From assembly GCA_022606425.2 (NCBI GenBank), contig JAHDVF020000444.1, positions 434,001-498,000 of the forward strand: DNA of 64,000 nt, written 5' to 3'. Shown piece after piece: positions 1,095 to 64,000 of the stretch. The first letter of the stretch is position 1, and the number at the start of each line of letters is the position of its first letter. The position numbers were made by a program, and so were the translations under genes. The notes under the pieces are model-generated. The model saw nothing but the letters and a program-made list of their open reading frames with translations, was not told the DNA's origin and searched no databases. The stretch comes from Lepidostoma basale. Lineage: Eukaryota; Arthropoda; Insecta; Trichoptera; Lepidostomatidae.

Positions 1095-1156
1095 TTATTA
1101 TACTACTCTGGTGAAGCTTGGGTCCCAGCGAAACTAGTTGGTATCAATTATAATAA
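1095..1156 (+). ncRNA. Hammerhead-like ribozyme module (family C)
   Basis: Core CTGGTGA at 1108-1114, one extra A, hairpin 1116-1129 (GCT...AGC), GAAAC at 1130-1134, two bases, then GTT at 1137-1139. The bases before the core (TACT, 1104-1107) pair with those after GTT (GGTA, 1140-1143). After an internal loop (1 nt versus 5 nt), TTATTATA (1095-1102) pairs with TATAATAA (1149-1156). This matches a type I hammerhead with minimal stem III and a looped stem I, as in Penelope-like elements. Deviations are A-to-G at core position 6 and the extra nucleotide before stem II, so activity is unproven. Confidence 0.45.
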
Positions 1157-2532
1157 CCATACCGTGGTTAAATACAAAGTGTTTTATTATTTTATATCTA
1201 TGAGAATCTATTTAAGTCCGCACAAATAAATGTAATACCCATGTATCCATTACACATATAACCCAGCCTACACCCCTCAAGGCGCACTAGACTGTTCTGT
1301 AGGTGGATAGAGGAAGCGAGTCAGACCTAGAGCCACAGGAAAAAAAAACCTACAGGACCAGTTAAAGGCGACAGACTTCATAAAGAATGGCGTTAAGCAT
1401 CAGGCGTGCGATATAATCGAGAGAAGGACCCTCGAAGCCCCATGCATCACGCAGGTGTGATAGAAAAACAAAAAGGTGTTGTTTACCCGAAACATGTTTG
1501 TGAAAAATTATATTAAATATTGTATTAATACAAATAATTTTGTGATAACTTTTGAAAAATATTGTGTCGTACTGACAACAACATTTTTTTTGACATTTCT
1601 TTTTACATTTAGGCTTTGGACCTCAGACGTCTTTCCTCAGTATTAAAATTTGAAAATATGTTTTAAAATATATACATATAATGAAGGAAGTCTGCTGTCT
1701 TAAACAAGTGAAAAAGTATTATACATAAAAACGTTACGTTTTTCGAGATTATATATGTGTAAATCTACAGCACAATGTGATGGTGAACGAAGAAGAAATT
1801 CAAAATATATTTTAAAAAAATGGACGTACAATACAACGTGCAGGCGAGTAAGGCATGCATCGATCAATGGCTAACACTAGCTTATAGACTGTATGGGTTG
1901 CACGCAACTGGTAAATGTATAATACTCGTATAATGACCATTCACACCCATCGAAGGTTATGACCATGATGGCCGACACCCAGATTTAAATTAGTCTAGCC
2001 ACGCCGTATTTCTCTCACTCTTAACTACCAAATCACATTACGTATTAAGCATTAGTCAAAACCAAATATATAAAATTGTACACTACAGGCTGGTATGTAA
2101 TTTATCAGAAGTGTCAAGTTGGCAATTAGTGTCAGGTACAGAGCTGAAGTGTCGGCCCAGTTATGTGCAGGTGCTAGCAGTGCCTACGTACTTACACGGA
2201 CTGGTGAGATACTTTGGCAAGTGATGTGCCTAATCTTCCTGATTCCACACCTACTGGATAATGTGTTAACATATTAATAGTACTTGACTAAACCTATTTT
2301 CTAGCCCGACGACTGTGAGCTGGACAATACGGAAATGACTTTTCTTACTGGCATGGGCGATGAAAGGAGAAATATTTTTAAAAATATTTTGAATGTATTT
2401 TTGACAATGAATCATACTGTGATTTTCATATTTAGTCACGTTTTACTAAATACTCACTGTTACACTTCAGAAAATAGGAAAATCCGTTTAACTATTTATT
2501 ATTAAGAAAACTTTCTGGAAGTTAACAATATA
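1157..2532. other. Intergenic DNA with degenerate repeat pieces
   Basis: No gene seen. Degenerate GAAAC-type modules occur near 1485-1500 (+) and as a diverged inverted pair near 1610-1720. The segments 1258-1480 and 1850-2330 are less AT-rich than their surroundings and are not recognised. Confidence 0.4.
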
Positions 2533-2732
2533 TTTTAAACTGTTCATGAATACACTTTGTTTTTTGTATCACAATTGTATTTTATTTTACGCGACAGTTG
2601 TTTTATCGACCTATGTTGACATCATCATTGTAACACCTAATGATGTCAACATAGGTTGATGAAACAGCTGTCGCGTAAAATAAAATACAATTGTGATACA
2701 AAAAAAAAAGTTTATTCATTAACAATTTAAAA
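2533..2732. repeat. 200-bp palindrome of family B modules
   Basis: Two arms (about 2533-2624 and 2641-2732) are near-perfect reverse complements around a 16-bp spacer. Each arm holds the family B module: TGATGAT, a GTCAAC/GTTGAT hairpin, then GAAACAGCTGTCGCG (direct copy at 2641-2675). Confidence 0.85.
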
Positions 2733-2734
2733 TG

Positions 2735-2880
2735 TTAAGGTATCATAGTGTTGCGGCCAAAACAATGGACTATTTAGTAAACGATATGTTATGTTATGAT
2801 ATTAATTCATTGTTTTGGCGGAAACATAATAATGCTTCAACATTATTAACTGTTTTAATTTTGAAACAGTGTTATAATAC
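2735..2880. repeat. Inverted repeat around CCAAAACAATGGACT
   Basis: Two inverted copies of a block containing CCAAAACAATGGA (about 2738-2780 and 2805-2860). The same block recurs near 16180, 39340, 45400, 51430, 51830, 52060 and 54450, often as the outer ends of family B palindromes. It looks like the outer part of the same repeat family. Confidence 0.6.
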
Positions 2881-2882
2881 TA

Positions 2883-4999: not shown

Positions 5000-5665
5000 A
5001 CTGGAACAAGTGGATGAATTTGTTTATTTAGGAAGTATGTTTACAAAGGATGGGAGAGTGGAGAAGGATATTGAAAGAAGGGTTGGGGCAGGCTACAGAG
5101 TAAATGGTGCACTTAAAGTTGTCATCGCAAACAAAAGCCTATCCAAAAAAGCTAAGATGGCAGTGCATAATGGTGTTCTTGTGCCGACCCTTATGTATGG
5201 AAGTGAAGCATGGAACTGGCAAATGAAGGATGAAAGTAGAATAAATGAAGTAGAAACGAGATCTCTAAGACGGATGTGTGGTAAATCTGTAGATGATAGA
5301 GTCTCAAATGCAAGTATAAGAAGTGAATGCTGTGCGAATGAAAGTGTTATGAACAGAATAATGAAAGGGTCGTTCAGATGGTTAGGACACATGGAATGAA
5401 TGAGTGAAGACAGAATGGTGAAGAAGGTATATGTAAACGACGTGAACGGAGCTAGAAAAAGAGGAAGACCGAGGAAAACATGGCACGATCAAATCAGTCA
5501 AATATTAAATATCAGTCACGTGAGGAGTCGGAGAAATCGACGTGCGTGCATGACAATATGTATGAATGTAGAGGAATCGAGAAAAGTATGTTAGGACAGA
5601 ACAGTGTGGCGTTCCATTCTTTCTGCCTATCCCTCCGGGGAGACGGCGTGTTGGTTAGTTAGTTT
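5000..5665 (+). mobile_element. Family A LINE, 5'-truncated, GTTA tail
   Basis: The C-terminal RT region and 3' end of the most abundant LINE here. Frame 5010-5399 reads FVYLGSMFTKDGRVEKDIERR, YGSEAWNW, SLRRMCGKSV and FRWLGHME. An in-frame stop at 5397-5399 interrupts the ORF, which resumes at once as MSEDRMVKKVYVN and continues to GRPRKTWHDQI. It ends TTGGTTAGTTAGTT, the family's short tandem tail. This domain order is common to RTE-like and related insect elements. Upstream catalytic RT and endonuclease are absent. Confidence 0.85.
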
Positions 5666-6040: not shown

Positions 6041-6042
6041 CG

Positions 6043-6150
6043 AGTGTCGCGACAGCTGTTTCGCTAACCGATGTTAGCATCATCAGGCGTTACAAACAAT
6101 TGTTTTTATTAATAAAATTAAGGCGTTAACACTGCGGAATTCCATAATTA
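6043..6150 (-). repeat. Family B module, single arm
   Basis: Reverse-strand copy of the family B hammerhead-like unit (GTCGCGACAGCTGTTTCG...CATCATCAGG on the + strand). It is joined to the recurrent sequence GGCGTTAACACTG...GAATTCCA, which also appears near 21540, 24545, 38880 and 42665. Confidence 0.6.
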
Positions 6151-6732
6151 TTTTTTTTTATGAAATAAACCTCTTTTTCACTTTTGAGTTAATTGTGTGC
6201 CGTTTCAGAAGGTGTTGCTTTAATAATTTAATATTTTTATACCCCACGGAGCATAACTATTATCCTTTTTTGTACCCCTCAGTATTTCTCACAGGAATGT
6301 TGAAGTTCAACACTCTTGAAACTCGTCGAATGATTTTTCAAGGCAAGCATTTTTTTAAACTATAATATAATATTATCCCTAGGTATTTACAATCCAGGAA
6401 TACTGAGAGAACTTAATCTATACGTTCCCCATTTATTTATATATTTATTTAATGCCCCAAATTGTCGCACAGAGGCCCTTCGTAGTTCTCCTATATTAAA
6501 AACGATTCGTCTTTTAAATGAGGTGGCAAAAGAGATAGACCTCTTTGGATGCAATTATGGTGAATTCGTGAATACCCTTACGATAAGGGCAGAAAGGAAA
6601 TAACTGGCATATTCCTATTCATAAGGTTCTATGTATATTTCCTTCGATATTCTTTTTTTTCACCCTTAAATTGATTTGGCTCGCGCTGTAATGATGTAAG
6701 TGGTTTTTTCAACAAAATAATAATAATAATAA
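6151..6732. other. Intergenic DNA; stray minisatellite unit and SINE 3' end
   Basis: A single diverged unit of the downstream 55-bp minisatellite sits at about 6190-6230. The 3' end of the tRNA-derived SINE (reverse strand) lies at about 6645-6715, followed by (AAT)n at 6716-6732. No gene seen. Confidence 0.5.
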
Positions 6733-7240
6733 TAGTTGGTTTTTAAATTTCGATGATCGTGTACCACTTCAGAAGGTGATGCTTTAATAGTTGGTTTTTA
6801 AATGTCGATGATCGTGTACCACTTCAGAAGGTGTTGCTTTAATAGTTGGTTTTTAAATGTCGATGATCGTGTACCACTTCAGAAGGTGTTGCTTCAATAG
6901 TTGGTTTTAAATGTCGATGATCGTGTACCACTTCAGAAGGTGTTGCTTTAATAGTTGGTTTTTAAATGTCGATGATCGTGTACCACTTCAGAAGGTGTTG
7001 CTTTAATAGTTGGTTTTTAAATGTCGATGATCGTGTACCACTTCAGAAGCTGTTGCTTCAATAGTTGGTTTTAAATATCGATGATCGTGTACCACTTCAG
7101 AAGGTGATGCTTTAATAGTTGGTTTTTAAATGTCGATGATCGTTTACCACTTCAGAAGGTTTTGCTTTAATAATTGGTTTTTAAATGTCGATGATTGTGT
7201 GCCGCTTCAGAAAGTGTAGCTTTAATAGTTGGTTTTTTTC
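6733..7240. repeat. 55-bp minisatellite, nine units plus partial
   Basis: Units begin at 6733, 6788, 6843, 6898, 6952, 7007, 7062, 7116, 7171 and 7226 (partial); the units starting at 6898 and 7062 are 54 bp. Each contains TAGTTGGTTTTTAAATGTCG and CCACTTCAGAAGGTGTTGC. The 54-bp variants recur three units apart, hinting at a 164-bp higher-order repeat. The array ends inside the polypyrimidine tract of the splice acceptor at 7243, so it lies at the 3' end of an intron. Confidence 0.95.
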
Positions 7241-8290: not shown

Positions 8291-8410
8291 TTAATATTTT
8301 TATGGATAGTACCTAAACCGTTTGATTAAATTTACATGAAACAGACTATTCGGAGATTATTATTATTTATTGTTTTTTGAACAATAATGTAAAACTCCAT
8401 ATTAAATAGT

Positions 8411-8578
8411 TAATACGAATGAAAACGACAGTTTTATAGTAGTTTCATTATATTTTATAGGAATGACATGTTTCGCCCTTCTAAGGCATTATCAAATGTC
8501 ATGCCTTAGAAGGGCGAAACAAATCATTTCCACAAAATATAATAATACTTCTAGAAAACTGTCGTTTTTAATTATTAC
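8411..8578. repeat. Family E palindrome
   Basis: Head-to-head arms of about 76 bp (8411-8488 and 8502-8578) run from AATACGAATGAAAACGACAG inward to the module TTGATAAT-GCCTT...AGGGC-GAAACATGTC. It is flanked by the recurrent GAACAATAATGTAAAACTCCAT motif. Sister copies are near 17035, 35240, 37292, 43540, 44580, 45126 and 51195. Confidence 0.8.
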
Positions 8579-8639
8579 TATGTTTTTAGTTAAATTTGTG
8601 AGCATTAAAACTCATTTGACGATAAAGATTTAATTAAAT

Positions 8640-10781: not shown

Positions 10782-11445
10782 TTTAACCATCACGTCGTCC
10801 CCCGCAGGGGAGGCAGAAAGAATGGACTGCCACACCTGACATATTTTTTCCGCTTTCTCAACATTCACGTGGCCGACATTCAATATTTGATTTATTTGAT
10901 CGTGCCACGTTTTCCTCGGTCTTCTTCAATTTCTATTTCCATTTACATCGTTAACTTATCATTTTTTTACCATTCTTTGTTCATTCATTCTTTCCATATA
11001 TCCAAACCATCTTAATGATCCTTTCATTATTTTGTTCATAACACCATCATTTGCACCGCATTCACTTCTTATATTTTCATTCGACACTATCATACACATC
11101 GCACGCTTAATAGTAAACTGACCGATTATGTTTTAGGTCACAATTGAGTTAATATTAGACAGAGGCTTGTGTTAAGGCTATCCATCTATTTTTCACAATG
11201 TTAACGCTATCCATTCGTAGTACGATAATCGTTCACAATGTTAACGCTATCCATTCGTACGTGTTTTTCAACTGTTTTTGTTAAAACACCGACTCATGTC
11301 AGATTGAGCAAAACTTGCTTTTTTGAGTTAAGCTAGTGTTCTATTAAGCGTGCGACATATTCGTCTTAGATATCTCATTTCCACTGCATTTATTTTACTT
11401 TAATTCTTTATTTGTCAGTTCCATGCGTCGCTTCCATACACAATA
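10782..11445 (-). mobile_element. Family A LINE split by a MITE
   Basis: Reverse-strand copy of the GTTA-tailed family: 3' end at 10782 (AACCATCACGTCG), then the RPRKTWHDQI-equivalent region, the RWFGYMER-like region and the IRSECGAND-like region. A 253-bp element interrupts the codons just after the region equivalent to SVYDRV, and the LINE resumes at 11354 with the complement of SLRRMC. Frames are broken. Confidence 0.8.
11101..11353. mobile_element. 253-bp MITE with GCACGCTTAATAG termini
   Basis: Exact 13-bp terminal inverted repeats (11101-11113 and 11341-11353). Inside, a 28-bp unit containing TTCACAATGTTAACGCTATC is present twice in tandem (about 11202 and 11231 onward), with a weaker third copy upstream. 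It is inserted in a family A LINE. I could not fix the target duplication. Confidence 0.75.
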
Positions 11446-11454
11446 ATAACATTT

Positions 11455-11515
11455 AATAATGCCTCAGCAAGGCGAAACAGGTCATTCCCATAAAATATAA
11501 TTCAACATCTAGAAA
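11455..11515 (+). repeat. Family E module, single arm
   Basis: AATAATGCCTCAGCAAGGC then GAAACAGGTC: hairpin GCCT/AGGC followed by GAAAC-AG-GTC, as in other family E copies. Confidence 0.6.
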
Positions 11516-14470: not shown

Positions 14471-14474
14471 ACCA

Positions 14475-14645
14475 CCTTATTTTTGATTTATCAAAGCAAC
14501 CAGTTTTGCTCCCGCCGAAGCTTCATCAGGATTACAAAACAAACAATTTTTTTAACATTTTAAGTTCGTTTTGTAACCATGACGAAGCTTTGGCTGGAGC
14601 GAAACCTGTTGGTTTGATAAAAAAAAATTAAATTGGTAAAAAAGT
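14475..14645. repeat. Family D palindrome
   Basis: Arms at about 14475-14542 and 14563-14645 are inverted copies of the module (C)CTGATGA-A-GCT...AGC-GAAAC. The flanks give AT-rich arms with TTTGATAAA. Confidence 0.75.
14575..14614 (+). ncRNA. Hammerhead-like module (family D)
   Basis: Core ATGACGA at 14579-14585, one extra A, hairpin 14587-14600, GAAAC 14601-14605, CT, GTT 14608-14610. AACC (14575-14578) pairs with GGTT (14611-14614) as stem I. Core position 3 is A instead of C, so this copy may be inactive. Confidence 0.35.
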
Positions 14646-15510: not shown

Positions 15511-15594
15511 AATTTTTAAATTTTAATAAGGTTGGTATTGGGTACTAAGTATTTATACAGTAAATCTTTTAAAAAAATATTTATATAGTATTTT

Positions 15595-15725
15595 TAGTTG
15601 AATTCCACTGTGTTTATGGAATCGACCAGTTTCAACAGCTCGCTGCCATCTTCTGGTCTGGCACCAGAAGATTGCAGCGAGCTGCCGAAACCGGTCGAAG
15701 CCATAAACCTAAGTGAAATTTAACT
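15595..15725. repeat. Family G palindrome
   Basis: Near-perfect head-to-head arms (15595-15661 and 15662-15725) with almost no spacer. The right arm reads CCAGAAGATTGCAGCGAGC, TGCC, then GAAACCGGTCGAAGCC. The 5-bp hairpin GCAGC/GCTGC precedes GAAAC. Confidence 0.8.
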
Positions 15726-16984: not shown

Positions 16985-17206
16985 AAAAAAAGTTTTTTGT
17001 TGAGCAATGATGTAAAACTAAATATTCAATAGTTAATACGAATGAAAACGTCTGTTTTCTGGAAGATTTATTAGATTTAATGTGAATGATATGTTTTGCC
17101 TGTCCAAGGCATTATCAAATATTTGATAATGCCTAAGGCTGGTGAAATATGTAATTCACATTAAATAAAATAAATTTTCCAGAAAACAGACGTTTTCATT
17201 TGTATT
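16985..17206. repeat. Family E palindrome
   Basis: Arms at about 17035-17120 and 17121-17206 meet at TTATCAAATATTTGATAA. Both run outward through TTTTCTGGAA to AAACAGACGTTTTCAT. The left flank is GAGCAATGATGTAAAACT. Confidence 0.8.
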
Positions 17207-17209
17207 ATT

Positions 17210-24440: not shown

Positions 24441-24444
24441 GTCG

Positions 24445-24486
24445 TTCTCCCGATGATGAAGGTGTGCCTTCGAAACATGTTGAGAA
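24445..24486 (+). ncRNA. Hammerhead-like module, best stem I/II pairing
   Basis: Stem I 5' strand TTCTC (24445-24449), core CCGATGA (24450-24456), extra T, stem II GAAGG/CCTTC with TGTG loop (24458-24471), GAAAC (24472-24476), AT, GTT (24479-24481), and stem I 3' strand GAGAA (24482-24486). All five stem I and five stem II pairs are Watson-Crick. Core position 4 is C instead of U. It is followed by AATAAACTCA and the recurring ACAGTGTTTTAATTC tail. Confidence 0.45.
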
Positions 24487-24690
24487 AAATAAACTCAATT
24501 GTGGAAAAAACAGTGTTTTAATTCATAAAAAATCGACACTATGGAATTCCACAGTGTTAACGCCTTAAGTTTAAGTAAAATTATTATTCTTCTCTTTCTA
24601 GGAGATAGATATAGAAGAAGAAAGAATTGACAATGCTAAAATATTTTTTTATGGTAAGATTCTTAAGGATTAACAATAATAATAAAATTA
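24487..24690 (+). repeat. Body of the 24.4-kb module repeat
   Basis: AATAAACTCAATTGTG..., then CACAGTGTTAACGCCTTAAG (about 24555-24575). The same ending occurs near 6120, 38880 and 42665, which links these copies into one family. Confidence 0.5.
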
Positions 24691-27640: not shown

Positions 27641-27735
27641 AATTATTTCTTGAACAATGATGTTAAACTAATTATTAATTAAAATTTTCAGATGAGGTCC
27701 TCACTTTGTATTTAAAAATTTAGGTATTAAATAAT

Positions 27736-27930
27736 AAAACACTTGTATTTGAACATGGTATAGTTTTTATAATTGATGCATACTAGTTTCGCTTGGACTC
27801 AAGATTCATCTGGGAAATATAATTACGTTTATGTTTATATTGTCCTGATGAAGTTTGAGTCTAAGCGAAACTAGTTGGCATCAGTCATAAAAACCATACC
27901 GTGTTTAAACATAAATATTTTATTATTTTA
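27736..27930. repeat. Family C palindrome
   Basis: Arms at about 27736-27818 and 27842-27930 with a 23-bp spacer. Both run outward through GAAACTAGT to ATAAAAAC and CATACCGTG/CATGGTATAG. The family is also seen at 1095-1215 and near 43310-43370. Confidence 0.75.
27834..27891 (+). ncRNA. Hammerhead-like module with consensus core
   Basis: TGTC (27841-27844), perfect core CTGATGA (27845-27851), extra A, stem II GTTT/AAGC (27853-27856 with 27863-27866), GAAAC (27867-27871), TA, GTT (27874-27876), GGCA (27877-27880) pairing with TGTC. Beyond an internal loop, TTTAT (27834-27838) pairs with ATAAA (27887-27891). Apart from the extra A this satisfies the whole hammerhead consensus. Confidence 0.5.
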
Positions 27931-37290: not shown

Positions 37291-37291
37291 T

Positions 37292-37535
37292 TTATTTATT
37301 TATTGTTTCTTGAACAATAATTTATTATAAAACTCTATATTTAATAATTTATATAAATAAAAATGCTATTTTATAAATATTTTATTTTATTTTATGGGAA
37401 AAACATATTTCGCCTTACTAAAGCATCATCGAATGTTTTTATTTATAATGCCTTAGTAAGGTGAAACATGTCATTCCCAGAAAATATAATTACACATCTA
37501 GAAAACAGACGTTTTCATTAGTAGTAACTTCTTTT
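37292..37535. repeat. Family E palindrome
   Basis: The left arm carries TTTCTTGAACAATAA...AAATGC and CATATTTCGCCTTACTAAAGC. The right arm carries GCCTTAGTAAGGT then GAAACATGTC (GAAAC at 37463-37467) and ends AACAGACGTTTTCAT. Confidence 0.75.
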
Positions 37536-37619
37536 TTTTTAATATTAAAAAAATAATAATATGATAAACTCAAAAATAATGCCTTACACACAAAAAGAAG
37601 ATAATAAAATTCACAATTA

Positions 37620-38699: not shown

Positions 38700-39065
38700 A
38701 TAATCTATGATACTTCTAAGTTATTAAATGTTAAAATTTAAAACACTGTTATTACATATCACGATTTATTTATATGAATGTGTCTCGATAGCTGTTTCGC
38801 CAATCTATGTTGGCATTATTAGGTGTTACAAACAACTGAAGATTCAACAAAAAATAATTCTAAGATAAACTTAAGGCGTTAACACTGTGGAATTCCATGA
38901 TGACTATTTCTGATGAATTAAAACGGAAGGCCTTAGAAACATATCGAGAAAAATAAACTCAAAAATGAAAGAACATTCACAAAAAAAAAATCGAAAAAAT
39001 ATTTCATTTATGTTACCAACATAGGTTGAAGAAACAGCTGTCGCGACATGATACGTAATGAGAGT
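38700..39065. repeat. Family B and GTTAACACTG repeats, jumbled
   Basis: A reverse-strand family B module (38770-38830), the GGCGTTAACACTGTGGAATTC motif (38876-38896), a weak GGAAGGCC...AGAAACATATCGAG module (about 38925-38955) and a + strand family B module (39015-39055). It looks like nested or rearranged copies. Confidence 0.55.
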
Positions 39066-41250: not shown

Positions 41251-43380
41251 ATTTCCACAATCAAAAATAACGGTTCCTCTTGTAGGCAACCATTTTACAT
41301 CAAAATAAAAAAATAAAACAAAATATGAAATGCAAAGGTATCCGACCTGGTAACAGTTGGAAAATTGCCATTTCAGTTGAAAAAAAATTGTTTTGATACG
41401 TGAGTTCAAATTTAAAAGTATTTTTACTTACTTGCATTATTTATGAACGACAGGTATGTTCCAGATGAATGACACTCCCTTCATTGTAACCTAAAAAAAC
41501 TCACGTTTATTTAAACACAATTTTAAAATAAACATGGCAATAAAGATGAACAAATAAAAAAATTCAAATAAATAGCTTTTAAAAAACATTGCGTTTTTAC
41601 AGCATATGTTTAAATTATAAAGGTTTTAACAAGCTTAAAATTTTACACTGAGAAAGGACGTCTGTGATCTGAAACATGCTAGTTAAAAGTGAAAAAAAGA
41701 GTTTATAATAATGCTATGTTTTTAAAATGATTGATAAAATAAAATTATATTTAGATTTGATTTTTTTTATAATGTCGAATAGTGATAAAAAATAATTACT
41801 TATTTTGCGATAGATGAAATATCTAAACATTTAATAGCTTTTGGCATGAATGCCTTCTTTAAAAAACACAAAAATAAAGAAAAAAAAAATTATGTTGGCA
41901 TGCTCGTAAATTCTTTTACATGTTTTTCTAGATTTTTATTTTGAAACTTTGCGATTCGTAAGAAGATTAATTATAGTAAAAAAAATCATACTTATTATCA
42001 CGAACACAATGCGGTAAAAAAATGGTTATTTTTGTTTACAATAATTTTCAATTGATGGGTTGACCGACGAAGAGTGTGCCAATATTCGGGGGTAAAATTA
42101 GATTATTATTTAATCGATAATGTATTTATAGGCCTACTCACCAATTTCCAAAAATATACACATCTAACTAATACGGCTCGCGGAATTGGGCGAATCCAAC
42201 TGGACGTGTTCTTATTTTTGTTCAAACGGCTATTGGTGAACAATTTTATTAGCAGACTATCAATACGTATTATCGGCCATTAAACACGGCCAATTTTTGT
42301 AACAATAACACGAGCTGATGGATAGCTTACAATATCACAATCAAGTTCATGGATACCCATAAAAATATACATTTATTTCAAATATGTTAATATTTTCGTT
42401 TGGCACAATTTTAAACTAACAATATTTATTTCAAAGCATATTAGATAAAAAAATTAATTCAATGTAATCAAATGATTTTACTGAAATCTCTCGATGGAAG
42501 TTCATTTTGAATAATAATTTATCGGTCGCTGTCGAAATAAAGACAAGAGTGGAAGTAGTTAAAAAACATTGTTTTATTAATAATTATTTAAATTTAATGT
42601 GTTCGAAATATTGACCAACTTCATTAAATACTATTTTTCACTTTAAACATTTAAAAAACGGTATGGAATTTCAGTGTTAACGCCTTAAGTTTATAAAAAT
42701 ATGTTATATATTATAAACTGCAATATATTAACCAATCGTTTAAAAATAATAAAATTTTAAAATATGTAAACATGTCTTCCTAAACCGGTACAAAAATATT
42801 GATTAATTATTTATAAAAATTTTTTGGCAAATTTTTTAATCAGTTTAAATCAGTTTTAAAATATTTCAAATAAAATGAGTCCCAAACCCATTTTTTTTAA
42901 GAAAAAAAAAAGTTTGAAAGCACGAAAAATATATTTTATATCCGTCTTCACACTGTGTTGTGGTTTCATATTTCAATAACTTTTGAAAAACAACAAAAAA
43001 TGTGAAAATATGATGTTTTAAAAAAATATACATTATTTAATGGTTTCAAAATAATTTTGTAAATTTTTACATTATTTTTTATTAAAGGAAACGTCTGTTT
43101 TTTTAGAAACGTAAATGTATTTTTTAGAGTGACGATTGAAGCATTATCAAATGTCAAATATTTTCTGTCATTTTCATTAAAAATATAAATACAATTTTAA
43201 AATTTTGACATGAAGTACTCTCTTTGTGGTTAGACATTTTAAATTATTACATATGTGTATAAACTAAAATAACACAATATGTACAAGTATATTAACCCCG
43301 AAATTGTTATTATGCCGACTAGTTTCGCTTGTACCCAAGCTTCGTCAGGGAAATAGAATAACTAAATAAAAATACAGATC
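41251..43380. other. 2.1 kb AT-rich DNA with scattered repeat scraps
   Basis: GGACGTCTGTGATCTGAAAC module at about 41650-41690. Outer arm of the 58.6-kb family at 42470-42595. GTGTTAACGCCTTAAG at 42675. A reverse-strand family C module at about 43315-43365. The 42050-42280 segment has a 69-codon + frame without motif. No gene called. Confidence 0.4.
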
Positions 43381-44090: not shown

Positions 44091-44097
44091 GTGTCAC

Positions 44098-44240
44098 CAG
44101 TCTGTTGATGCCAGCGAGCCTGGCGAAACGAATTGCTGTCGAAATAAAGAAAAAAGTGGAAGTAGTTAAAAAACATTGTTTTATTTATTTATTATTTAAA
44201 ATGAACTGTGATCAAGAGATTTCAGTAAAATAATTTGATT
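44098..44240 (+). repeat. Single arm of the 58.6-kb module family
   Basis: CAGT (44098-44101), CTGTTGA (44102-44108), extra T, GCCAG/CTGGC hairpin (44110-44124), GAAAC (44125-44129), GA, ATT, GCTG (44135-44138) pairing with CAGT. It is followed by GAAATAAAGAAAAAAGTGGAAG and the outer arm. Compared with 58590-58630, GTC is replaced by ATT. Confidence 0.65.
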
Positions 44241-45125: not shown

Positions 45126-45365
45126 TCATTAATACGAATGAATTCGTATCAACGATATCCTGAATAAGTTTTCTAGAAGATTTATTTTAATTTATTGAAA
45201 GACAATTTTTTCTTTGCTGCGGCATTATCAAATTTATACATTTAATAATACCTTAACGAGGCGAAACATGTCGTTCCCATAAAATAAAACGAGACTTCCA
45301 GGAATCGGGCGTTTTTATTCGAATAAATTATTGAACATAAAGTTTTGGATTCAAGAAACAATAAA
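45126..45365. repeat. Family E palindrome
   Basis: Left arm 45126-45229 and right arm 45240-45365. The right arm has CCTTAACGAGGC then GAAACATGTCGTTCCC and ends in the AAGAAACAATAAACAA motif. Confidence 0.7.
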
Positions 45366-45699
45366 CAACTTGGTGATTTAAACGATTTCTTAAATAGTCC
45401 ATTGTTTTGGCCGTTTTAACAGATGTTATAAAGATTTATTTGGAACGTTTTTTGCTTTGGTTATAACAAATATTATGATTCAATATATTTCAAAAAAATA
45501 ATTTAAAGTTCATATTGGGGTTCAGGTAATAACTTACAACAAAGGAAATAAATCAAAGATTGGACGTGACGTTAAATTTATTTGATTATATAATATTTTC
45601 TTTATTTTTAATAGCTTTTTTAATTTCTAAAATTTCGAGATTGCTCAAAGTTATTTTCTATTATTAATACCCTAAATTTTAAATATGTATCTTTATAAT

Positions 45700-45775
45700 A
45701 TGTATCACTGAAGAAGGACTGGTTGTCCGGAACATGTCTGTGTAATTATATATTTTTAATATAAGTGTTGTATAT
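45700..45775 (+). repeat. GGAC/GTCC module, isolated
   Basis: CTGAAGA at 45708-45714, extra A, GGAC...GTCC hairpin (45716-45728), then GGAACATGTC. Four perfect stem II pairs, but GAAA is changed to GGAA and stem I pairs poorly. Confidence 0.45.
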
Positions 45776-48899: not shown

Positions 48900-48985
48900 T
48901 TATAACACTTGATGATGTCAACATAGGTTGATGAAACAGCTGTCGCGTAAAATAAAATACAATTATGATACAAAAACAAAGTTAT
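48900..48985 (+). repeat. Family B arm
   Basis: TTGATGA, extra T, GTCAACATAGGTTGAT hairpin, GAAACAGCTGTCGCG, then AAAATACAATTATGATACAA; the same as the right arm at 2641-2700. Confidence 0.7.
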
Positions 48986-51699: not shown

Positions 51700-51790
51700 G
51701 ACAGATTATTGTTACACCTAATGATGTCAACATAGGTTGACAAAACAGCTGTCGCAAAAAATATTAAAAATTAATAAATATTAATTTTGA
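51700..51790 (+). repeat. Family B arm
   Basis: ACACCTAATGATGTCAACATAGGTTGAC then AAAACAGCTGTCGC. Confidence 0.6.
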
Positions 51791-51809
51791 TACATAAACA
51801 AAATTTTAT

Positions 51810-52090
51810 AATCCATTGTTTTGGCCGAAACACTATGATACTTCAACATTATTACTGTTAAAATTTAAAACACTGTTAATGGTGTTACAATAAACTTTGA
51901 CAGAGTTTATTGTAACACCTGATGATGCCAACATCGATTGGCGAAACAGCTGTCGCGACACTCTCAGTGAATAAAAATAAATTGTGATATTATAACAATT
52001 TTTAAATTTTAACAGTAATAAAGTGTTATAATTTGACAGTTAATAAAGTTGAAGTATCATAGTGTTTCGGCCAAAACAATGGACTATTTA
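51810..52090. repeat. Complete family B element with 75-bp inverted ends
   Basis: Outer ends AATCCATTGTTTTGGCCG (about 51811) and CGGCCAAAACAATGGACTAT (ending about 52088) are inverted repeats extending through CTTCAACATTATTACTG. In the middle are one consensus module and an inner hairpin (TTACAATAAACTTTGACAG/TTTATTGTAA). This is the clearest view of the whole unit. Confidence 0.7.
51919..51955 (+). ncRNA. Hammerhead-like module (family B)
   Basis: Consensus CTGATGA (51919-51925), extra T, stem II GCCAA/TTGGC (51927-51942, six-base loop), GAAAC (51943-51947), AGCT, then GTC. Core, stem II and cleavage triplet are intact, but I find only isolated complementary bases for stem I, so folding is less certain than in the other families. 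Confidence 0.35.
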
Positions 52091-52689
52091 ATTCAAATTT
52101 TAAACTATTCTTCATTTAAATAAAACCATTCGAGTAAAATATACGAAAACCCAACATCACCACAAACTGTCTTCACTTGATTCAAGTTTGAAATCAGAGT
52201 AGTTGAAAAGTTTTGACGTTTTAAGTATCCAAATTTCATCAAATTCTTACAGAGATTATAAACAGTTAGTTTCTTGTCATAATAAAATTGTACGCCTCAT
52301 ACTCAATTTACAATTTCGAATGTCGTAAAAGACGTATTATGAAATATCGTCTTATGCTTATGTAGTCTGGTGATGTTAAGAGTTTAATCCTGTAGCGGGA
52401 GAGTAATAATCTTGGGGGTATTTCGGTCCGGCTATAATTAGCCCCCAATATTTCTCAAGACCGAGTGAGCTCCACTCGCGGCTTTCGTTACCGGAGGGAG
52501 TAAAACCCATCACTTGGGACCGGCCAGTTCATTCTCGAGCCTATTCCCAATTGATTTAACTATGAACTTGACTCCGGGACTCCGGGAATTTCTGTGATAT
52601 CTCTATCTTACGGAGTATGGATATTACCCTTGACTCTCTCCGACTGATTTCTTGCTAGGGATGCTAGGCTACCAGTCACTCAAGAGAAT
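52091..52689. other. Non-repetitive block with GC-richer core
   Basis: 52380-52640 is GC-richer and CpG-containing (GGTCCGGCTATAATTAGCCC, GTTACCGGAGGGAG, GGGACCGGCCAG), with no long frame and no relative in the window. Possible conserved non-coding DNA. Confidence 0.3.
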
Positions 52690-53067: not shown

Positions 53068-54360
53068 CGAGGGCGGTTTGATAAGTCAGGGACTTTTTGC
53101 ATAAAACGTATATTTTTCGGCAAAAAAGCATTTTATTTCCCAACATAGTCTCCTTTTAGCTAGATACAATTTGTCCAGCGTTTTCCCAATATTTTTATTC
53201 TTTCCAAAAAATAGGTTTTCTCAAGGCCTTCAAAATAGGCGTTCGTTTCAGTGATGACCTCTTCATTCAACCCAAATCTCTTACCGCCCAAACATTTCTT
53301 CAGGTTTGGAAACAGGAAATAGTCACAGGGGGCTAAATCTAGAGAATATGCCGAATGGGTTAGCAGTGCGTAGCCCAATTTATGGATTTTTGCCATGGCG
53401 AATGCACACGTGTGCACCCGTGCATTGTCTTGATGGAACAGCACTTTTTTCTTCGTCAAATGCGGTCGTTTCTGCTTCAAATCAATATCGAATATGTCCA
53501 AAAGCTTTGAATAATATTCGCCGGTGATCTTTTTACCCTTTTCAGAGTAATCGATGGGAATACACCGCGTGCATTCCAAAAAACTGTGACTATGACCATG
53601 TTGGCCGACAGACCCACCTTGGCCTTCTTTGGTGCACGTTCACCCAGAGAAACCCACTGTTTTGAATTTTCCTTAGTCTATAGTGTAATATGATGGATCC
53701 ATGTTTCGTCTACGATAACGAATCAGCGCAAAATCTCATTCCGATTGCGTGTGAACATCGCCAAACATTCCTTTGAAGTGGTCACACGGTTGCGCATATG
53801 GTCGAGTGTGAGCAATTGCGGCAGCCATCGCGCGGATAGCTTTTTAATATCCAAATATTCATGTAAATGTGATGTACCCGCTCAGTTGAGATGCCTACAG
53901 CCTCAGCCATCTAGCGCATTTTCATTATTCGATCGTCTAATACTATTTCATGGATTTTATCGACGATTTCTGGCGTGATGACCTTTTTGGGCGACCTGAA
54001 CGTTCGGCGTCTCTTGTGCTGGTACGACCACAACGTAACTCAGTAAGCTACTTCTTAACCATTGAAATTGATGGTGCAGAGTCCACATAGTATTTATCAA
54101 GCCTTTTCTTGGTTTCGGTGATGGGTTCTTTTCGCAAAAAATAATTCTTAATCAGCATACGAAATTCACTTTTTTCCATTTTCGTTACAATTCACCAGGT
54201 TGTTTGCTTTCAATGGCTGTCAAATACGAACAAAATGGCGCAGCCTTCTCAAAATTGTACAGTAGTCTATTCATAGATGGTAGTTGACGAGAGCAGTGTT
54301 ATGTTTAAAGTTACTGCACGGGAAATTCACAAAAGTCACTGACTTATCAAACCGCCCTCG
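53068..54360 (-). mobile_element. mariner transposon, 1293 bp, TA duplication
   Basis: Inverted termini begin CGAGGGCGGTTTGATAAG on both ends (about 27 bp, one mismatch), flanked by TA at 53066-53067 and 54361-54362. Length and ends are those of a complete mariner. The transposase is broken. Confidence 0.95.
53133..54179 (-). pseudogene. mariner transposase, inactivated
   Basis: Read from ATG at 54179, the N-terminus is MEKSEFRMLIKNYFLRKEPI. A stop replaces the conserved Trp after MVKK, and further stops and frameshifts follow. The last part (53160-53579) is open. The catalytic residues are still recognisable: VDETW (first Asp), HQDNARVHT (second) and LAPCDYFLFP (third), with 34 residues between second and third, i.e. 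DD34D. A premature stop follows TNCI (53160-53162), nine codons before the ancestral end near 53133. The original would be about 348 aa, the usual mariner length. The enzyme cuts and pastes the element at TA sites; this copy is dead. Confidence 0.9.
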
Positions 54361-54916: not shown

Positions 54917-55080
54917 AAACGATAAATTTGAAACACTCTTATTATACCTATTACAATTTATATTTATGCGTCGCGACAGCTATGCTGACATCATCAGGTG
55001 TTACAAACAACAGATGTTTGTAACACCCGATGATGCCAAAATAGGTTGGTGAAATAGCTAAATGGCACCAATTTCTCCAT
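54917..55080. repeat. Family B palindrome
   Basis: Inverted modules around AACAACAGATGTTTGTAACACC: the left reads CATCATCAGGTGTT and the right reads CCGATGATGCCAAAATAGGTTGGTGAAATAGC. The stem is largely kept, but GAAAC has decayed to GAAAT in the right arm. Confidence 0.65.
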
Positions 55081-58260: not shown

Positions 58261-58530
58261 TGTTTTAGAATTTGATTTGAAATATTGCAAATATTAATAA
58301 ATATTTAGTTGAGCATTCAATGCTTCAGGTTAAAAACGTTAATATTTTTTCAATAATACAATACGTCATTACGTAAGCGTTTATACTCGTACATAGATAT
58401 ATACTTTAAAGTTTCAATCCTAGGGATTGGTTTGCATCAGAGTGTAACATTGTTGCTGGTTCTTGGGATGCTACTTTAATGTGGTCGTCTCCCATTGTTT
58501 TCCACATTTATGTATACAACAAGTTATTTG
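58261..58530. other. Unassigned AT-rich DNA
   Basis: Nothing recognised. Confidence 0.4.
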
Positions 58531-58534
58531 AAAT

Positions 58535-58790
58535 AATAATTAAATAAAACGATGTTTTTTAACCACTTCCACTTTTGTTTTTATTTCGACAGCGACCGGT
58601 TTCGCCAGGCTCGCTGGCATCGACAGACTGGTGAGACAGGTGGTTGACCAGTCTGTCGTTGCTAACAAGCCTGGCGAAACCGGTTGCTGTCGAAATAAAG
58701 ACAAAAGTGGAAGTAGTTAAAAAAACATCGTTTTATTTCATTATTATTTAAAATGAACTTCCATCAAGAGATTTCAGTAAAATCATTTTA
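58535..58790. repeat. Palindrome of CTGGC-GAAACCGG modules
   Basis: Arms 58535-58634 and 58646-58747, about 95% complementary, extend from AAATAAAACGATGTTTTTTA through CCACTTCCACTTTTG to the module. The right flank continues into AACTTCCATCAAGAGATTTC, shared with 10.2, 42.5 and 44.2 kb. Confidence 0.88.
58590..58630 (-). ncRNA. Hammerhead-like module with GUC triplet
   Basis: Reverse strand: CAGT (58630-58627), CTGTCGA (58626-58620), extra T, GCCAG/CTGGC hairpin (58618-58604), GAAAC (58603-58599), CG, GTC (58596-58594), GCTG (58593-58590). Stem I CAGU/GCUG and stem II pair completely. Core positions 6 and 7 read U and C instead of A and U; the conserved A6 is therefore lost in this family. 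Confidence 0.4.
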
Positions 58791-58829
58791 ATATCTTAAA
58801 AAGTTATTTGAATTCAATTTGTTATTGAC

Positions 58830-58990: not shown

Positions 58991-59639
58991 CATATATCAG
59001 TTGTTTACATGTGCATACAAGAGTGTCGAACATCATCGGAAGAGTACATACAAAGTTAACCATATTAAATGTACATACACTAAAATATTGCTAAACATAC
59101 TCGTATATCTTTTCAAATCTAAAAAACGTGTTCTTCCACCTAACCTAACACTTTTTTGCGTTGAAGCGTGAGTAAACAATATTTATTAATGTGATCTTAT
59201 AATAGAAATGATGAGAGAATCCGTGAAAATATGCTTTGTAACGCCACAGCCTACATTCGGTACTTTTCCGCTTCCTTTGAGGTCGTTTTTTTCTGTGTAT
59301 GGAAAATCTAATGAACTGCCAAGATTTTTTGTTCACACTTCGACTAGATTATTCCAGAAAACGTTTCGTTAATTATAATTTCATTTCAGAATAAGTTATT
59401 CTAATGTGTGTTTAAAATGAAAATAATATTCTGAAATCTTTTAATAAATGTGAATGCTTATAAAATAAATCATTTATTTGAACTGCATATTTTAGTCGAC
59501 TATTCTAGAAACTTACTAATGAAAAATGTTTATCTTTTATAAATACATGAGATTATATAATATATAATATATATATTTTTTTATTTAATTTATTTTTTAA
59601 AAACTTAATTGGGTTATATGGTTTCATTTTTAGATCTTA
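58991..59639. other. Unassigned AT-rich DNA
   Basis: No gene or recognised repeat. Confidence 0.4.
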
Positions 59640-59715
59640 CTATTAATTACGTATTGTTTAAGATATTTTATTAATTACGTATTGTTTAAGACTATAAATT
59701 ACGTATTGTTTAAGA
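59640..59715. repeat. Three tandem copies of an AATTACGTATTGTTTAAGA unit
   Basis: Units of 28 to 33 bp at the exact 5' junction of the following LINE. They may have arisen during insertion or by slippage. Confidence 0.85.
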
Positions 59716-60530
59716 TATTACAAGTCCTGGTGAATTGTATGTATGAGGTATGCATGCGAAATGATCTGATGATGAATGTTAATAAGTCCAAGGTAATGAT
59801 TTTTGAAAAGGAAGAAACCATGACAGTCTGCAACATTAGCGTGAATGGTGAAAATTTGGAGCAAGTAGTTGAGTTCGTGTATTTAGGTAGTATGTTTACA
59901 AGAAATGGGCGAGTGGAGAGGGATATTGAAAGAAGGGTTGGGGCAGGCAACAAAGTGAATGGTGCACTTAAAGTTGTCATCGCAAACAAAAACCTATCAA
60001 AAAGGCTAGAATGGCAGTGCACAATGGTGTTCTTCTACCGACCCTTATGTATGGAAGCGAAGCATGGAACTGGCAAAAGAAGGATGAAAGTAGAATAAAT
60101 GCAGTTGAAATGAGATCTCTTAGAAGAATGTGTGGATACTCTGTGTATGATAGAGTGCCGAATGAAAATATAAGAAGTGAATGCGGTGCGAATGATGGTG
60201 TCATGAACAAAATAATGAAAGGATCATTAAGATGGTTTGGACATATTGAAAGAATGAATGAAGAAAGAATGGTAAAAAAATTATATGTTAATGATGTAAA
60301 TGGAACCAGAAATAGAGGAAGACCGAGGAAAACGTGGCACGATCAAATAAATCAAATATTGAATGTCGGCCATGTGAGGAGTCAGAGAAATCGACGCGCG
60401 TGCATGACACGATGTATGAATGTTGAGGAAGCGAGAGAAATATGTCAGGAAAGAAAAGTGTGGCAGTCCATTATTTCTGCCTACCCCTTCGGGGAGACGG
60501 CGTGATGGTTAGTTAGTTAGTTAGTTAAGA
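59716..60530 (+). mobile_element. Family A LINE with perfect GTTA tail
   Basis: CMYEVCMRNDLMMNVNKSKVM, then FVYLGSMFTRNGRVERDIERR, in one frame to about 60000. A one-base loss there shifts the remainder (60011-60505) into another frame: YGSEAWNWQKKDESRINAVE, LRWFGHIERMNEERMVKKLY, GRPRKTWHDQINQI, YPFGETA-stop. The tail is GGTTAGTTAGTTAGTTAGTT. Apart from the single frameshift it is nearly intact. Confidence 0.92.
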
Positions 60531-60785: not shown

Positions 60786-60910
60786 GATGTTTTTATATAT
60801 ATTTTTCTAATTATAAATACAATAAATACATGTTTTATTTATACATAAACGATTTAAAAGTTAAAATTATGTAAAGCACTTAATTTGTCTAAACTTCAGT
60901 TTATTCTCTA

Positions 60911-60949
60911 ACCCTGACGAAGCTCCGGCGGGAGCGAAATGGGTTGGTG
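60911..60949 (+). ncRNA. Hammerhead-like module (family D, isolated)
   Basis: ACC (60911-60913), CTGACGA (60914-60920), extra A, GCTC/GAGC hairpin (60922-60935), GAAAT (60936-60940), GG, GTT (60943-60945), GGTG. Stem I has three pairs (ACC/GGT). The last base of GAAAC is changed. Confidence 0.35.
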
Positions 60950-61169
60950 TTAACAATTAAAGTGGTTTAGATACAAATATTAAAAGTATATTATTATTTT
61001 ATTAAAATTATGTACTGAATAATGATTGAAATAAGTCATATTATATAATATATATCAGGAAGTTTATGGAACACCATCTGGAAAAACAAGTAATAACAAT
61101 CCAAAACAATGACCTAGAATATTGAATCTTCAGTCGACACTATCAGAACCAAAACCTTCCCTTGAACCA

Positions 61170-61446: not shown

Positions 61447-61745
61447 AATATATACAAATACTTGAAGACAAATACTGGATTTTTCCATTACGGGTTAATC
61501 ATAATGAATTAATTGTATCTCAATAGAGACGAAGATGTAAATTATTTGGAAGCAGAATATGGTGGCCGAGGCGTTTACAGGACTTATGACCTGTCATTGG
61601 TTGGGTTAAGCGATCGCTTTATGTAATACAACATCCCCATTCCGCCCTTCTTACGAACACATAAGGTCATAAGTCCTGTAAACGCCTCGACCACCATATT
61701 CTGTTTCCAAATAATTTACATCTTCGTTGAATACAATTAATTCTT
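61447..61745. mobile_element. Internally deleted TGTATCTCAATAGAG MITE
   Basis: Terminal repeats AATTAATTGTATC...CAATAGAGACGAAGATG and the complement ending GATACAATTAATT (missing the CTCTATTG stretch) enclose only the first and last 100 bp of the 11.9-kb copy. The deletion joins CTTACGAACAC to ATAAGGTCATAAG. Confidence 0.85.
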
Positions 61746-62640
61746 TACAATTATTTTTTAAATTAAATTATCTCTTATTTTCTATCTTCCAAGAAAATCG
61801 TAAACTTGGATTGACCATTGATCAAACCAGGATTTGAATTACGATATTGACACGACGCAAATACGTTAAATTAACCAGAAGCGACTTGAATAACAGTCAA
61901 CATTCGTCCCTTATTTTTTTTGTCAGATCACGATAATTTAAAACACAATAAATTTCGGCCAAAGCGTGACTAGCGTGTGGCCAAGCGGTGTTATTCAGAA
62001 CACAAATATTCCGTCAAATAACATTGTTGTTTGTGGTCAGATAAGCGGGCAGGTGAACGTTACGAGACGTTCAAAAATAAATGCAATTGTGTTTCGGTCA
62101 TCTCTTTATTTTCGGTACGGAGTCCTTCGACCCAATCGCCAAATAAAAGCGCCCCGAAATAACATCTATTACTCACACGATCTTATTTAATATTTACGTA
62201 CGCCAATCGGCTAAAGGAGGAATATTCTAGAATCAAGTTTGGCGTAACAACTCCGGTTCAATTCATAACCTATCCTACAGTCTGGCCGGACAGAAATATA
62301 ATATTAGTCATAAGAAGTTCTCAAGTGCCAACTTTGCGATTGGAAATATCACCAGCGCACCTAAGGAGCATCAGCGAATTGATGTTTCGACTGATTTATT
62401 TATGCCTCTTAAGAATTATGTTGTGCGCGGACCCATTAGCGAAGACATTAATATCAGTATCTGGTGCTAAAATGCTCCTCACGAGCTCTGATTCGATGAT
62501 TTCGATGCAAAATTTAACGCTTTGATTTAGGATAATTTGTGTTATAACCCTCGCCCTCGTTGAAGAAAATTCAACGCTGAAGGAAGCATCCATCATCCAT
62601 TGTGCGGGGTTCATTAGATGCTCACAGCCGTTTTAACCAA
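61746..62640. other. 0.9 kb of non-repetitive DNA
   Basis: Balanced composition with CpG (GCGTGACTAGCGTGTGGCC, CGGTACGGAGTCCTTCG) and no relatives in the window. A reverse frame at 62396-62614 (72 codons, MNPAQWMMDASFSVEFSSTR..., ELVRSILAPDTDINVFANGS) and a + frame at 61966-62190 have near-coding composition but no family I recognise. This is the largest unexplained block that does not look like element debris. Confidence 0.35.
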
Positions 62641-62880
62641 AACTCTTTGATGAAATAATAATATTCATAATATAATACATAATATTTTTGGTATTCAAAC
62701 AAAATATTCATTTTGTTAGGGCCGTACAAATGTTATTTAAACATAGTTATAATAAAAATCGGTAAAACATTTTTATTCTAAATATAGCGTAGTTGTAGAT
62801 ATTTTATGAATGTCTAGTCAGGTTTTTAATAAGAACTCATTGTTTTTTGTAGAATATAAAAAATAAAAACATTTTAATAT
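62641..62880. other. Unassigned AT-rich DNA
   Basis: Nothing recognised. Confidence 0.4.
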
Positions 62881-62884
62881 CTGT

Positions 62885-63355
62885 CAAAACTGTATAAAAC
62901 AATAATCCGAACAGTAGTGACCTATGGATGTGAGGCGTGGACAATGACAGCGAAATCCGCAGAGCGACTAGATACTTTTGAGAGAAGGGTGCTGCGCAGA
63001 ATTCTGGGACCTGTGAATGGCGGTGAAGGCTGGAGAGTACGGCATAATGACGAGCTGTACCATATTTACAAAGCTCCCAGTCTCTCCACACAGGTCAGAC
63101 TGAATAGACTGAGATGGGCCGGTCACGTGCAGAGGATGCCGTCACCCCAAAAAGATTGCTGGAGTGGCACCCAGAAGGTAGAATACCAATTGGACGACCA
63201 AAGCTGCGATGGGAGGATGAAGTTGGGAGATATGGGGCAAGATTGTTAAGAGTGTCAGATTGGAGGGTCGAAGCGGAGGACAGGAGGAGTTGGAGGCGAA
63301 GAATACTAGAGGCTAAGGCTCGATATGGGCTGTAGGGCCATCGAAGAAGAAGAAG
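62885..63355 (+). mobile_element. Family D LINE, 5'-truncated
   Basis: TYGCEAWTMTAKSAERLDTF, ERRVLRRILGPVNGGEGWRV, RLNRLRWAGHVQRM; then a one-base shift near 63140 to PKRLLEWHPEGRIPIGRPKL, RWEDEVGRYG and WRRRILEAKARYGL-stop; then GAAGAAGAAGAAG. Only one frameshift, so relatively young. Confidence 0.9.
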
Positions 63356-64000
63356 ATGAAGTCAAAACTGACCACATTAATGAAAAAATGTGTTTAAATA
63401 TTTATTTTGTATATAAAATAATTAACTATACTGATGAAGGGCTTCTGTGTCTGAAGCACGATCAGTTTCGATAGATTTGACAGAAAGCCACAATATTTCT
63501 ACACACAATTAGCAACAGCAGTAAGTCAGTGAAATTTGGAGAAAACATAATTAATAATCAGATTCCTCCATTTACTCCTTTCTCCTTAAATACCCTTTCT
63601 ACTTTTAATCTTCAAAGCTCCCATTCTCAATAATATTGTCAACTCAAATTAACCAATTATTAGTATCTAGGCATAATATGTCTTTTTAAATGTACGTTTT
63701 TTTTTTCAAAATATAATTTTATATTATCACTTATAATTATTATGTGTTATTATTACTGTTAAAAATTTATTATTAGTTCTTAAAGCAATCAGTCCAGGTA
63801 TTTATTTTAAATTCAAATGTATTGTTTTTTGCATTGTATCGATTTTCAAATGTGTTTTAATGTCTTTCTTTGTTTAGTTTTTTTGTTATATATTTACACC
63901 GGAAGAAGGAGGTCTTCTCCGAAACATTAAGTGGAAAATTAACAGCGTTATTTTTCAATTCCAAAGAGTATTTCAATGAACTTCTACCATGATATTTCAA
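63356..64000. other. AT-rich end of window with two modules
   Basis: CTGATGA-A-GGGC...GTCT-GAAGC at 63431-63456 and CGGAAGA-A-GGAG/CTCC-GAAACATT at 63900-63928, both + strand. The second has a perfect 4-bp hairpin, but GTG where GTH is expected. No gene seen. Confidence 0.45.

Follow-up and report, generated by a model that had tools for sequence, protein, structure and literature searches.

Hammerhead-bearing repeats in the window

This analysis concerns a 64,000-nucleotide stretch of the genome of the caddisfly Lepidostoma basale (assembly GCA_022606425.2, contig JAHDVF020000444.1, positions 434,001 to 498,000, forward strand), which in its whole length is called the window and is numbered from its own first letter. 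The window contains numerous short repeats with a type I hammerhead motif, and these are very probably the pseudo-long terminal repeats (pLTRs) of Penelope-like retroelements (PLEs), provided with minimal, dimer-type hammerheads. A sequence-only reading had proposed more than 20 copies in at least six families, and this estimate is borne out: covariance model R1, built on an alignment of 16 copies (A1), finds 32 copies at E ≤ 0.05, all 16 seeds included, in seven families (A–G, labels assigned in the analysis), and 45 at E ≤ 5. Seven copies of this set have scores under 22 bits, a level that the chance matches in phage DNA mentioned below come close to, and most of these are palindrome partners. 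The copies show the type I core order CUGANGA … GAAA … UH with stems I, II, and III and, just as that reading described, the succession of box 1, one base, a hairpin, GAAAC, and GUH.

The same reading had suggested a descriptor with one insertion allowed before stem II. With a first descriptor admitting 0–3 extra bases, 12 of the 13 window matches hold exactly one and the remaining match holds none, compared with 0–2 one-base matches, and 1–5 matches of all classes, in six order-1 Markov controls. A second descriptor, applied to the window together with 35 genome loci (20 selected, 15 unselected), gives 60 matches, and the same sequences reversed give 1. A generic pattern run against IMG/VR and GTDB hit four phage coding stretches, which R1 scores at 12.7–21.7 bits and which were taken as chance matches, not as relatives; scores near 20 bits are therefore no proof by themselves. 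Further patterns run for relatives in IMG/VR and GTDB found nothing.

In family B, the copy at 27836..27883 (+, 42.8 bits) has a core intact by inspection, CUGAUGA-A-hairpin-GAAAC-UA-GUU, with UGUC/GGCA in stem I and the self-complementary ACUAGU in stem III. It forms the right arm of the inverted repeat 27721–27936, whose left arm, 81% complementary to it, holds a second copy at 27773..27821 (−, 19.1 bits, E 0.018). Two single arms belong to the same family, one at 1099..1147 (+, 41.4 bits) with the core change A6G and one at 43309..43357 (−, 49.8 bits) with a core intact by inspection. Family C occupies both arms of 14465–14643, at 14570..14618 on the right (+, 45.2 bits; stem I AACC/GGUU) and 14490..14538 on the left (−, 39.9 bits), and a single arm at 60905..60953 (+, 39.6 bits), while family D is present at 24441..24489 (+, 42.3 bits) with the core change U4C, UUCUC/GAGAA in stem I, and ACAUGU in stem III.

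Family E is found in both arms of 58521–58760, namely at 58589..58635 on the left (−, 34.7 bits; core A6U), where it is homologous to the pLTR of the genome loci L053–L056 discussed below, and at 58644..58690 on the right (+, 23.9 bits); a single arm with a tail carries another copy at 44093..44139 (+, 31.0 bits). Family F, which resembles E, is represented in the left arm of 15578–15743 at 15616..15664 (−, 21.6 bits, E 0.004). The family G hammerheads lie in the left and right arms of three inverted repeats: 8406–8581, at 8457..8504 (−, 39.8 bits; U3-A8) and 8489..8532 (+, 19.7 bits, E 0.013); 37285–37581, at 37394..37441 (−, 28.1 bits) and 37436..37479 (+, 23.6 bits); and 17034–17207, at 17080..17127 (−, 27.3 bits) and 17114..17161 (+, 22.1 bits). 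Single arms of family G are found at 11444..11491 (+, 40.4 bits) and 45233..45280 (+, 40.5 bits).

Two family A copies have cores intact by inspection, at 51910..51962 (+, 46.6 bits; stem III ACAGCUGU) and 6043..6095 (−, 46.9 bits). A family A head-to-head unit lies at 51802..52093 (no strand assigned), with both outer ends (..CAATGGAYTAT) and a left arm that is partly missing. The remaining copies are the right arm of 2522–2738 at 2628..2680 (+, 43.0 bits), whose arms are 93% complementary and whose left copy reaches E 0.12; a single arm at 48900..48952 (+, 42.9 bits); a copy at 51709..51761 (+, 36.2 bits); a left arm at 38779..38831 (−, 37.6 bits), separated by eye from its right arm by family D sequence; and the two arms of 54980–55044, at 54962..55006 on the left (−, 20.4 bits, E 0.008; with a deletion) and 55018..55072 on the right (+, 24.7 bits). 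Family D sequences were also seen by eye in or beside the centres of family A elements, at 38850–39008 and about 6100–6200. A model trained on families B–E alone (R2, seven copies) picks in addition 45699..45746 (+, 24.6 bits), CUGAAGA-A-GGACU-GGU-UGUCC-GGAA-CAU-GUC, a possible further family with GGAA for GAAA.

As to other features, an exon with a calponin-homology domain lies at 18469–18750 (E 1.4e-11), so that part of a host gene falls within the window. An endonuclease/reverse-transcriptase element, represented by C-terminal parts, has copies at 45785–46666, 59634–60505, 23373–23855, 25518–26248, and 5010–5399, and the nearest named relatives of one of them are lepidopteran. A Mariner-like transposase fragment lies at 53160–53639 (Pfam Transposase_1, 20.2 bits, under the cut-off of 24). 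Pfam searches on ten open reading frames (ORFs) of the window gave one calponin-homology match and one sub-threshold transposase match, and no PLE ORF was recognised by eye among the 72 window ORFs of at least 85 aa.

Structure and covariation of the hammerheads

Hammerhead positions are given in the customary numbering. The hammerhead structure is conserved among these repeats. In the 16 sequences of A1, 88.2% of the cells are paired, compared with 69.0% after shuffling (0 of 500 shuffles as high), and pairing falls to 23.5–53.0% when the partners are slid by 1–3 columns; two-sided changes occur at C3-G8, within stem II, and in the proximal part of stem I. For families B–E alone (seven copies), the figures are 96.1% vs 74.4% (0 of 500). 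Moreover, when the stem I strands were permuted among six family representatives, none of 719 permutations reached the matched score in any of three representative sets, even though a one-base shift in the reading of copy 44101 made the matched score lower than it should be. All of the stem I pairings quoted in the sequence-only reading, five in number, are in place, and its proposal of compensatory change that preserves RNA structure, to be examined through covariation of stems I and II, is confirmed for stem II and proximal stem I. Stem I is open and has 3–5 bp, stem II mostly 5–6 bp, and stem III one or two pairs. Stem I is weak in family A, where most copies have an A-C mismatch, and in family G, with 1.5–2 of 4 pairs.

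The assignment to type I hammerheads with a minimal stem III is supported by covariation, including the replacement of C3-G8 by U3-A8 in all three family G copies of A1, two of which also carry G5A. In PMC3088659, U3-A8 for C3-G8 is reported in natural hammerheads. By inspection, the whole core is kept in about five copies (27845, 43348 reverse, 51919, 6086 reverse, and 60914).

The constant base between box 1 and stem II was the main doubt expressed in the sequence-only reading, since it is absent from the textbook consensus. One base stands between CUGANGA and stem II in 52 of the 60 matches of the second descriptor, namely 38 with T, 13 with A, 1 with C, and not one with G. The (+) hammerhead of chrysanthemum chlorotic mottle viroid (CChMVd) carries the same insertion as A10, where U10 raises the rate 3–4 fold and C or G are harmful (PMC3705267), so that the doubt meets a documented natural variation and the base preference found here parallels that of the viroid, a plant RNA, in genomic repeats. 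In families with T, positions A9-U10-G10.1 read AUG, and the predicted family D cut site lies exactly 26 nt from this AUG. The U10 may be common to PLE hammerheads. The CChMVd (+) hammerhead is of type III. Within the examined stretches of this genome, a base that lies outside the textbook consensus is the rule, and the Rfam scan, as used, did not report the copies that have it.

Stem III was read from 39 of the 45 R1 matches at E ≤ 5, 4 of which were unreadable. The segment A15.1-U16.1 is perfectly self-complementary in 17 of the 35 readable copies and self-complementary with G-U pairs in 5 more, and 13 lack this property. The sequence differs among families: ACAGCUGU in A, ACUAGU in B, ACAUGU in D and G, and ACCGGU in E and F; in family C, only a G-U form in one arm is found. 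Self-complementary stem III loops have been tied to hammerheads that act as dimers (PMC3088659, PMC6466107). Loops of this kind are present in most families, and the hammerheads of these repeats are probably dimer-dependent. Neither this feature nor the palindromes described below had been mentioned in the sequence-only reading.

Head-to-head palindromes

The window holds 44 inverted repeats, and 14 of the 32 hammerhead copies lie within the 25 longest of them, where random shifts place 1.4 copies and 9 of 5000 shifts reach 14. Seven palindromes have a hammerhead at E ≤ 0.05 in both arms (27721–27936, 58521–58760, 14465–14643, 8406–8581, 37285–37581, 17034–17207, and 54980–55044), and in all seven the hammerheads read outward from near the centre, so that a transcript of either strand carries one. 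No hammerhead oriented the wrong way round was found in the 25 longest inverted repeats. The arm layout is, by eye, common to the families, and to call these families unrelated, as had been done, was therefore too strong. Hairpins at the outer ends were considered as a general feature and discarded; two family G ends (z −1.8 and −2.3) and one of family E (−1.25) fold somewhat better than shuffles, and five other ends fold no better than theirs.

Among the pairs listed, which are those below 0.27 with at least 50 sites, distances between related window arms range from 0.11 to 0.27, and by this divergence the window copies are old.

Copies in the genome and their link to Penelope-like elements

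Genome-wide, the 768.8 Mb assembly contains 32,135 matches to the exact pattern CTGATGAN{8,30}GAAAC, compared with 666 for the reversed control. A sample of 150 kb selected without regard to hammerheads yields 18 R1 copies at E ≤ 0.05. The window, with 32 copies in 64 kb, is about four times denser, with the reservation that R1 was trained on window copies.

A genome search with the Pfam GIY-YIG model gave at least 62 matches, which is a lower bound as 150 of 541 candidates were scored. Among the matches listed, five pairs run minus-then-plus at a spacing of up to about 2.4 kb; in the opposite order, plus-then-minus, no pair is that close. The long GIY-YIG copies include two open frames of 758 codons. 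The search for Penelope GIY-YIG ORFs beside copies of the repeats, which the sequence-only reading had recommended, was successful: in 5 of the 12 loci returned (L053, L054, L055, L056, and L059), a family E hammerhead lies 450–455 nt behind the GIY-YIG match, and in L053 this holds for both GIY-YIG copies. These five loci are copies of one element. L053, L054, and L059 are mutually 97–98% identical, among the matches listed, and the arms of L055 and L056 are 97–99% identical to the L054 arm. L053 is itself a head-to-head palindrome with an inverted self-match of 97.5% over 2,046 columns (arms 265–1253 and 1320–2308), and the family E stretches of the window align to the L054 arm at 87–96%. 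Nine homologues of the L059 ORF were compared, one of which contains RVT_1, GIY-YIG, and PF26215 together, the others having one, two, or none of these; a reverse transcriptase match is found only in such homologues and the short genome stretches themselves have none.

Another hammerhead family, not seen in the window, lies 355 nt behind GIY-YIG in L051 (CUGAAGA-U-GGAA..UCC-GAAACAUGUC, E 0.0008). L052 has a weak hammerhead behind GIY-YIG (E 0.13) and a family A palindrome 3' of it, perhaps a separate insertion. Two further loci, L048 and L050, contain long GIY-YIG ORFs, about 600 codons in length; by eye these have a bacterial, UvrC-like look, and they perhaps belong to symbiont or contaminant contigs. 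A GIY-YIG ORF is linked to the repeats of family E and of one further family. The Penelope affiliation put forward in the sequence-only reading stands directly for family E and the L051 family; for A, B, C, D, and G that direct link is missing, and from the arm layout that they share by eye with family E we infer a PLE origin for them as well.

Long and short arms

In the PLEs of rotifers, Penelope pLTRs are inverted, mostly head-to-head, with one shorter than the other and a 31-bp tail that is optional on one of them (PMC3846280). An anole PLE cuts and extends both target strands, and its reverse transcription starts at two adjacent sites, with the tail between them (PMC11167929). Inverted pLTRs with an optional one-sided tail are found here too, and in the light of both descriptions the palindromes correspond to known PLE anatomy. 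In the window, the family E palindrome has a tail at 58761..58798 (+), on its right and longer arm but not on its left; against the reference, the arms reach 185 on the right and 147 on the left.

For family E, the reference was the 200-nt left arm of L054. Left out of the count were L019, where the locus stops within the right arm; L047 and L059, whose pieces stem from distinct elements; a second right arm in L054; and a cross-pairing between 42445 and 44062. One short and one long arm were found in each of the seven evaluable pairs, which end, relative to the reference, at 136 and 184 (L053), 200 (the reference itself) and 140 (L054), 185 and 139 (L055), 137 and 185 (L056), 179 and 136 (L037), 147 and 185 (58521–58798), and 200 and 139 (42445–42592). 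If long and short arms were drawn at random with even odds, seven of seven would be expected in about 1 of 128 cases. In family A, scored against the right arm 51941–52093, three pairs combine a long and a short arm (L023, L025, and 16177–16344); family G was left out of the tail scoring. These pairs, few as they are, suggest that one pair tends to use both start sites of reverse transcription.

What is added over known PLE anatomy is the number of short head-to-head pairs. The rotifer pairs resemble those of L. basale in their head-to-head inverted pLTRs, one of them shorter, and in the optional one-sided tail; the tail measures 31 bp in the rotifer and about 38–61 nt here, and the pairs here are, unlike those of the rotifer as far as described in PMC3846280, often without ORF and present in high number. 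In a keyword search of the literature, with most subscription papers outside its reach, no ORF-less head-to-head pairs of hammerhead pLTRs in an insect were found.

Proposed mechanism and alternative explanations

The window repeats would thus be short, old pLTRs without a recognised ORF, each with a hammerhead that has one extra A or U at position 10 and a self-complementary stem III loop. It is predicted that two RNAs could join into a double hammerhead and be cut after GUC or GUU. With both target strands cut, the PLE enzyme would prime reverse transcription from each of them. Synthesis would begin at an internal position of the RNA, at either of two sites separated by about 45 nt, and proceed toward the RNA 5' end, and the joined products would consist of an antisense and a sense copy, with hammerheads pointing outward from the centre and often with a one-armed tail. 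Cleavage, dimerisation, and two-sided priming are steps that we infer.

Minimal dimer-type type I hammerheads of PLEs were reportedly described by Cervera and de la Pena (2014) and by Lunse et al. (2017). The repeats of L. basale share with such hammerheads the open stem I, the self-complementary minimal stem III, and the pLTR setting (PMC7761336, PMC6466107), and may differ in the nearly constant extra A or U before stem II.

Several observations weigh against this interpretation. Concerning detection, an Rfam scan at E ≤ 10 of the whole window and of two single copies returned no hammerhead match; the 25 matches in the whole window are all under gathering scores, and several coincide with palindromes. 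Rfam was dropped as a direct proof, this outcome being a result of the library and not a defining feature. In addition, R2 recovers the A, F, and G copies of the window weakly (best E 0.008). Concerning the core, many copies of families A and G have G5A or other changes, box 1 is partly missing in family F, and family E has A6U, also in young PLE copies. Given A6U, the family E ribozyme may be weak or dead; an A6C hammerhead variant is slow, at <0.1 per min (PMC3088659). As A6U is found in the young PLE copies L053–L056 and L059, mobility may not need an efficient ribozyme. Concerning the stems, a longer outer stem I is unsupported (−5.5 kcal/mol for matched vs −5.8 for mismatched duplexes), and the stem III count comes without a shuffled control; a two-base loop is self-complementary in 1 of 4 cases by chance, so that the weight of stem III rests on its occurrence in several families.

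Other such observations concern the elements as a whole. GIY-YIG is linked to family E and one further family only, and not to A, B, C, D, or G. Two family A pairs have two long arms (L024 and 51802–52093), and four have no long arm (L020, L021, L052, and 33839–34058). In the judgeable window palindromes, the closest copy of an arm is not its partner but an arm at another place, a pattern that old bursts would produce; the expectation that partner arms would be nearest copies was thereby abandoned, and an origin of both arms from a single RNA does not follow. In the flanks, which are AT-rich, no target-site duplication could be delimited by eye. Finally, the start site of the anole PLE is alike on both strands, and this element carries an active hammerhead, yet it inserts in vitro with a dead one (PMC11167929).

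The strongest alternative concerns the origin of the pairs and not the kind of element: the same PLEs could form head-to-head pairs through self-priming with antisense RNA as the template, a mode of origin put forward for rotifer Penelope on account of the palindromes that mark inverted junctions in Adineta vaga (PMC3846280). Palindromic centres are present here too, and self-priming remains a plausible route, if somewhat less than evenly likely; by itself it does not predict one arm ending at each start site, and extension of both target strands was seen in vitro with the anole PLE (PMC11167929). A more specific version of two-sided priming would hold that both start sites are used in each insertion, one per target strand, that the template RNAs are held by the double hammerhead, that the ribozyme serves to couple two-sided insertion rather than (only) to cut RNA, and that the extra A or U is fixed in the lineage; in this combined form, the proposal is unlikely.

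That the motif is a conserved hairpin of other function, such as protein binding or a DNA cruciform, and no ribozyme at all, could account for the amplification of families E and F despite their core deviations. It is nevertheless a very improbable explanation, as the letters conserved outside the pairs, the covariation at C3-G8, and the nearly A/U-only insertion all fit hammerhead requirements, and the anole PLE has an active hammerhead (PMC11167929).

Metazoan retrozymes, which are head-to-tail tandem repeats of 150–450 bp with type I hammerheads that spread via small circular RNAs, resemble the window repeats in being short, AT-rich, ORF-less, and non-autonomous, with sizes within the range of PMC7229834, and one same-strand pair lies 200 nt apart (51709 and 51910). 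Here, the recurrent layout is head-to-head instead of tandem, and the family E pLTR lies behind GIY-YIG ORFs, which leaves retrozymes a highly unlikely source. Of the tandem arrays in the window, the two larger ones, 6730–7237 (55-bp units, 9.3 copies) and 49817–50257 (112-bp units, 3.9 copies), were considered as retrozymes and rejected, as neither has a hammerhead match and the head-to-tail arrangement of hammerheads is not found in them. Palindromic miniature inverted-repeat transposable elements, moved by a DNA transposase and carrying the hammerhead incidentally, would explain the near-complete inverted repeats of about 200–380 bp, their many copies, and their family-specific ends, but are a very unlikely reading, given that arm ends are unequal in family E and part of A, that the GIY-YIG-bearing copy has the same layout, and that no clear target duplication was seen by eye.

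Significance

One PLE can dispense with hammerhead cleavage for its insertion in vitro (PMC11167929), which puts the role of the hammerhead in these elements in question. The kind of element found in L. basale is already known; its copy number, the near-constant extra base, and the mirror layout are what make this genome a natural test set. It is a large one, with cores in the tens of thousands spread over several families, head-to-head insertions, and young, near-identical PLE copies, and counting in this genome could ask if the ribozyme, dimerisation, and the two start sites of reverse transcription are needed for insertion.

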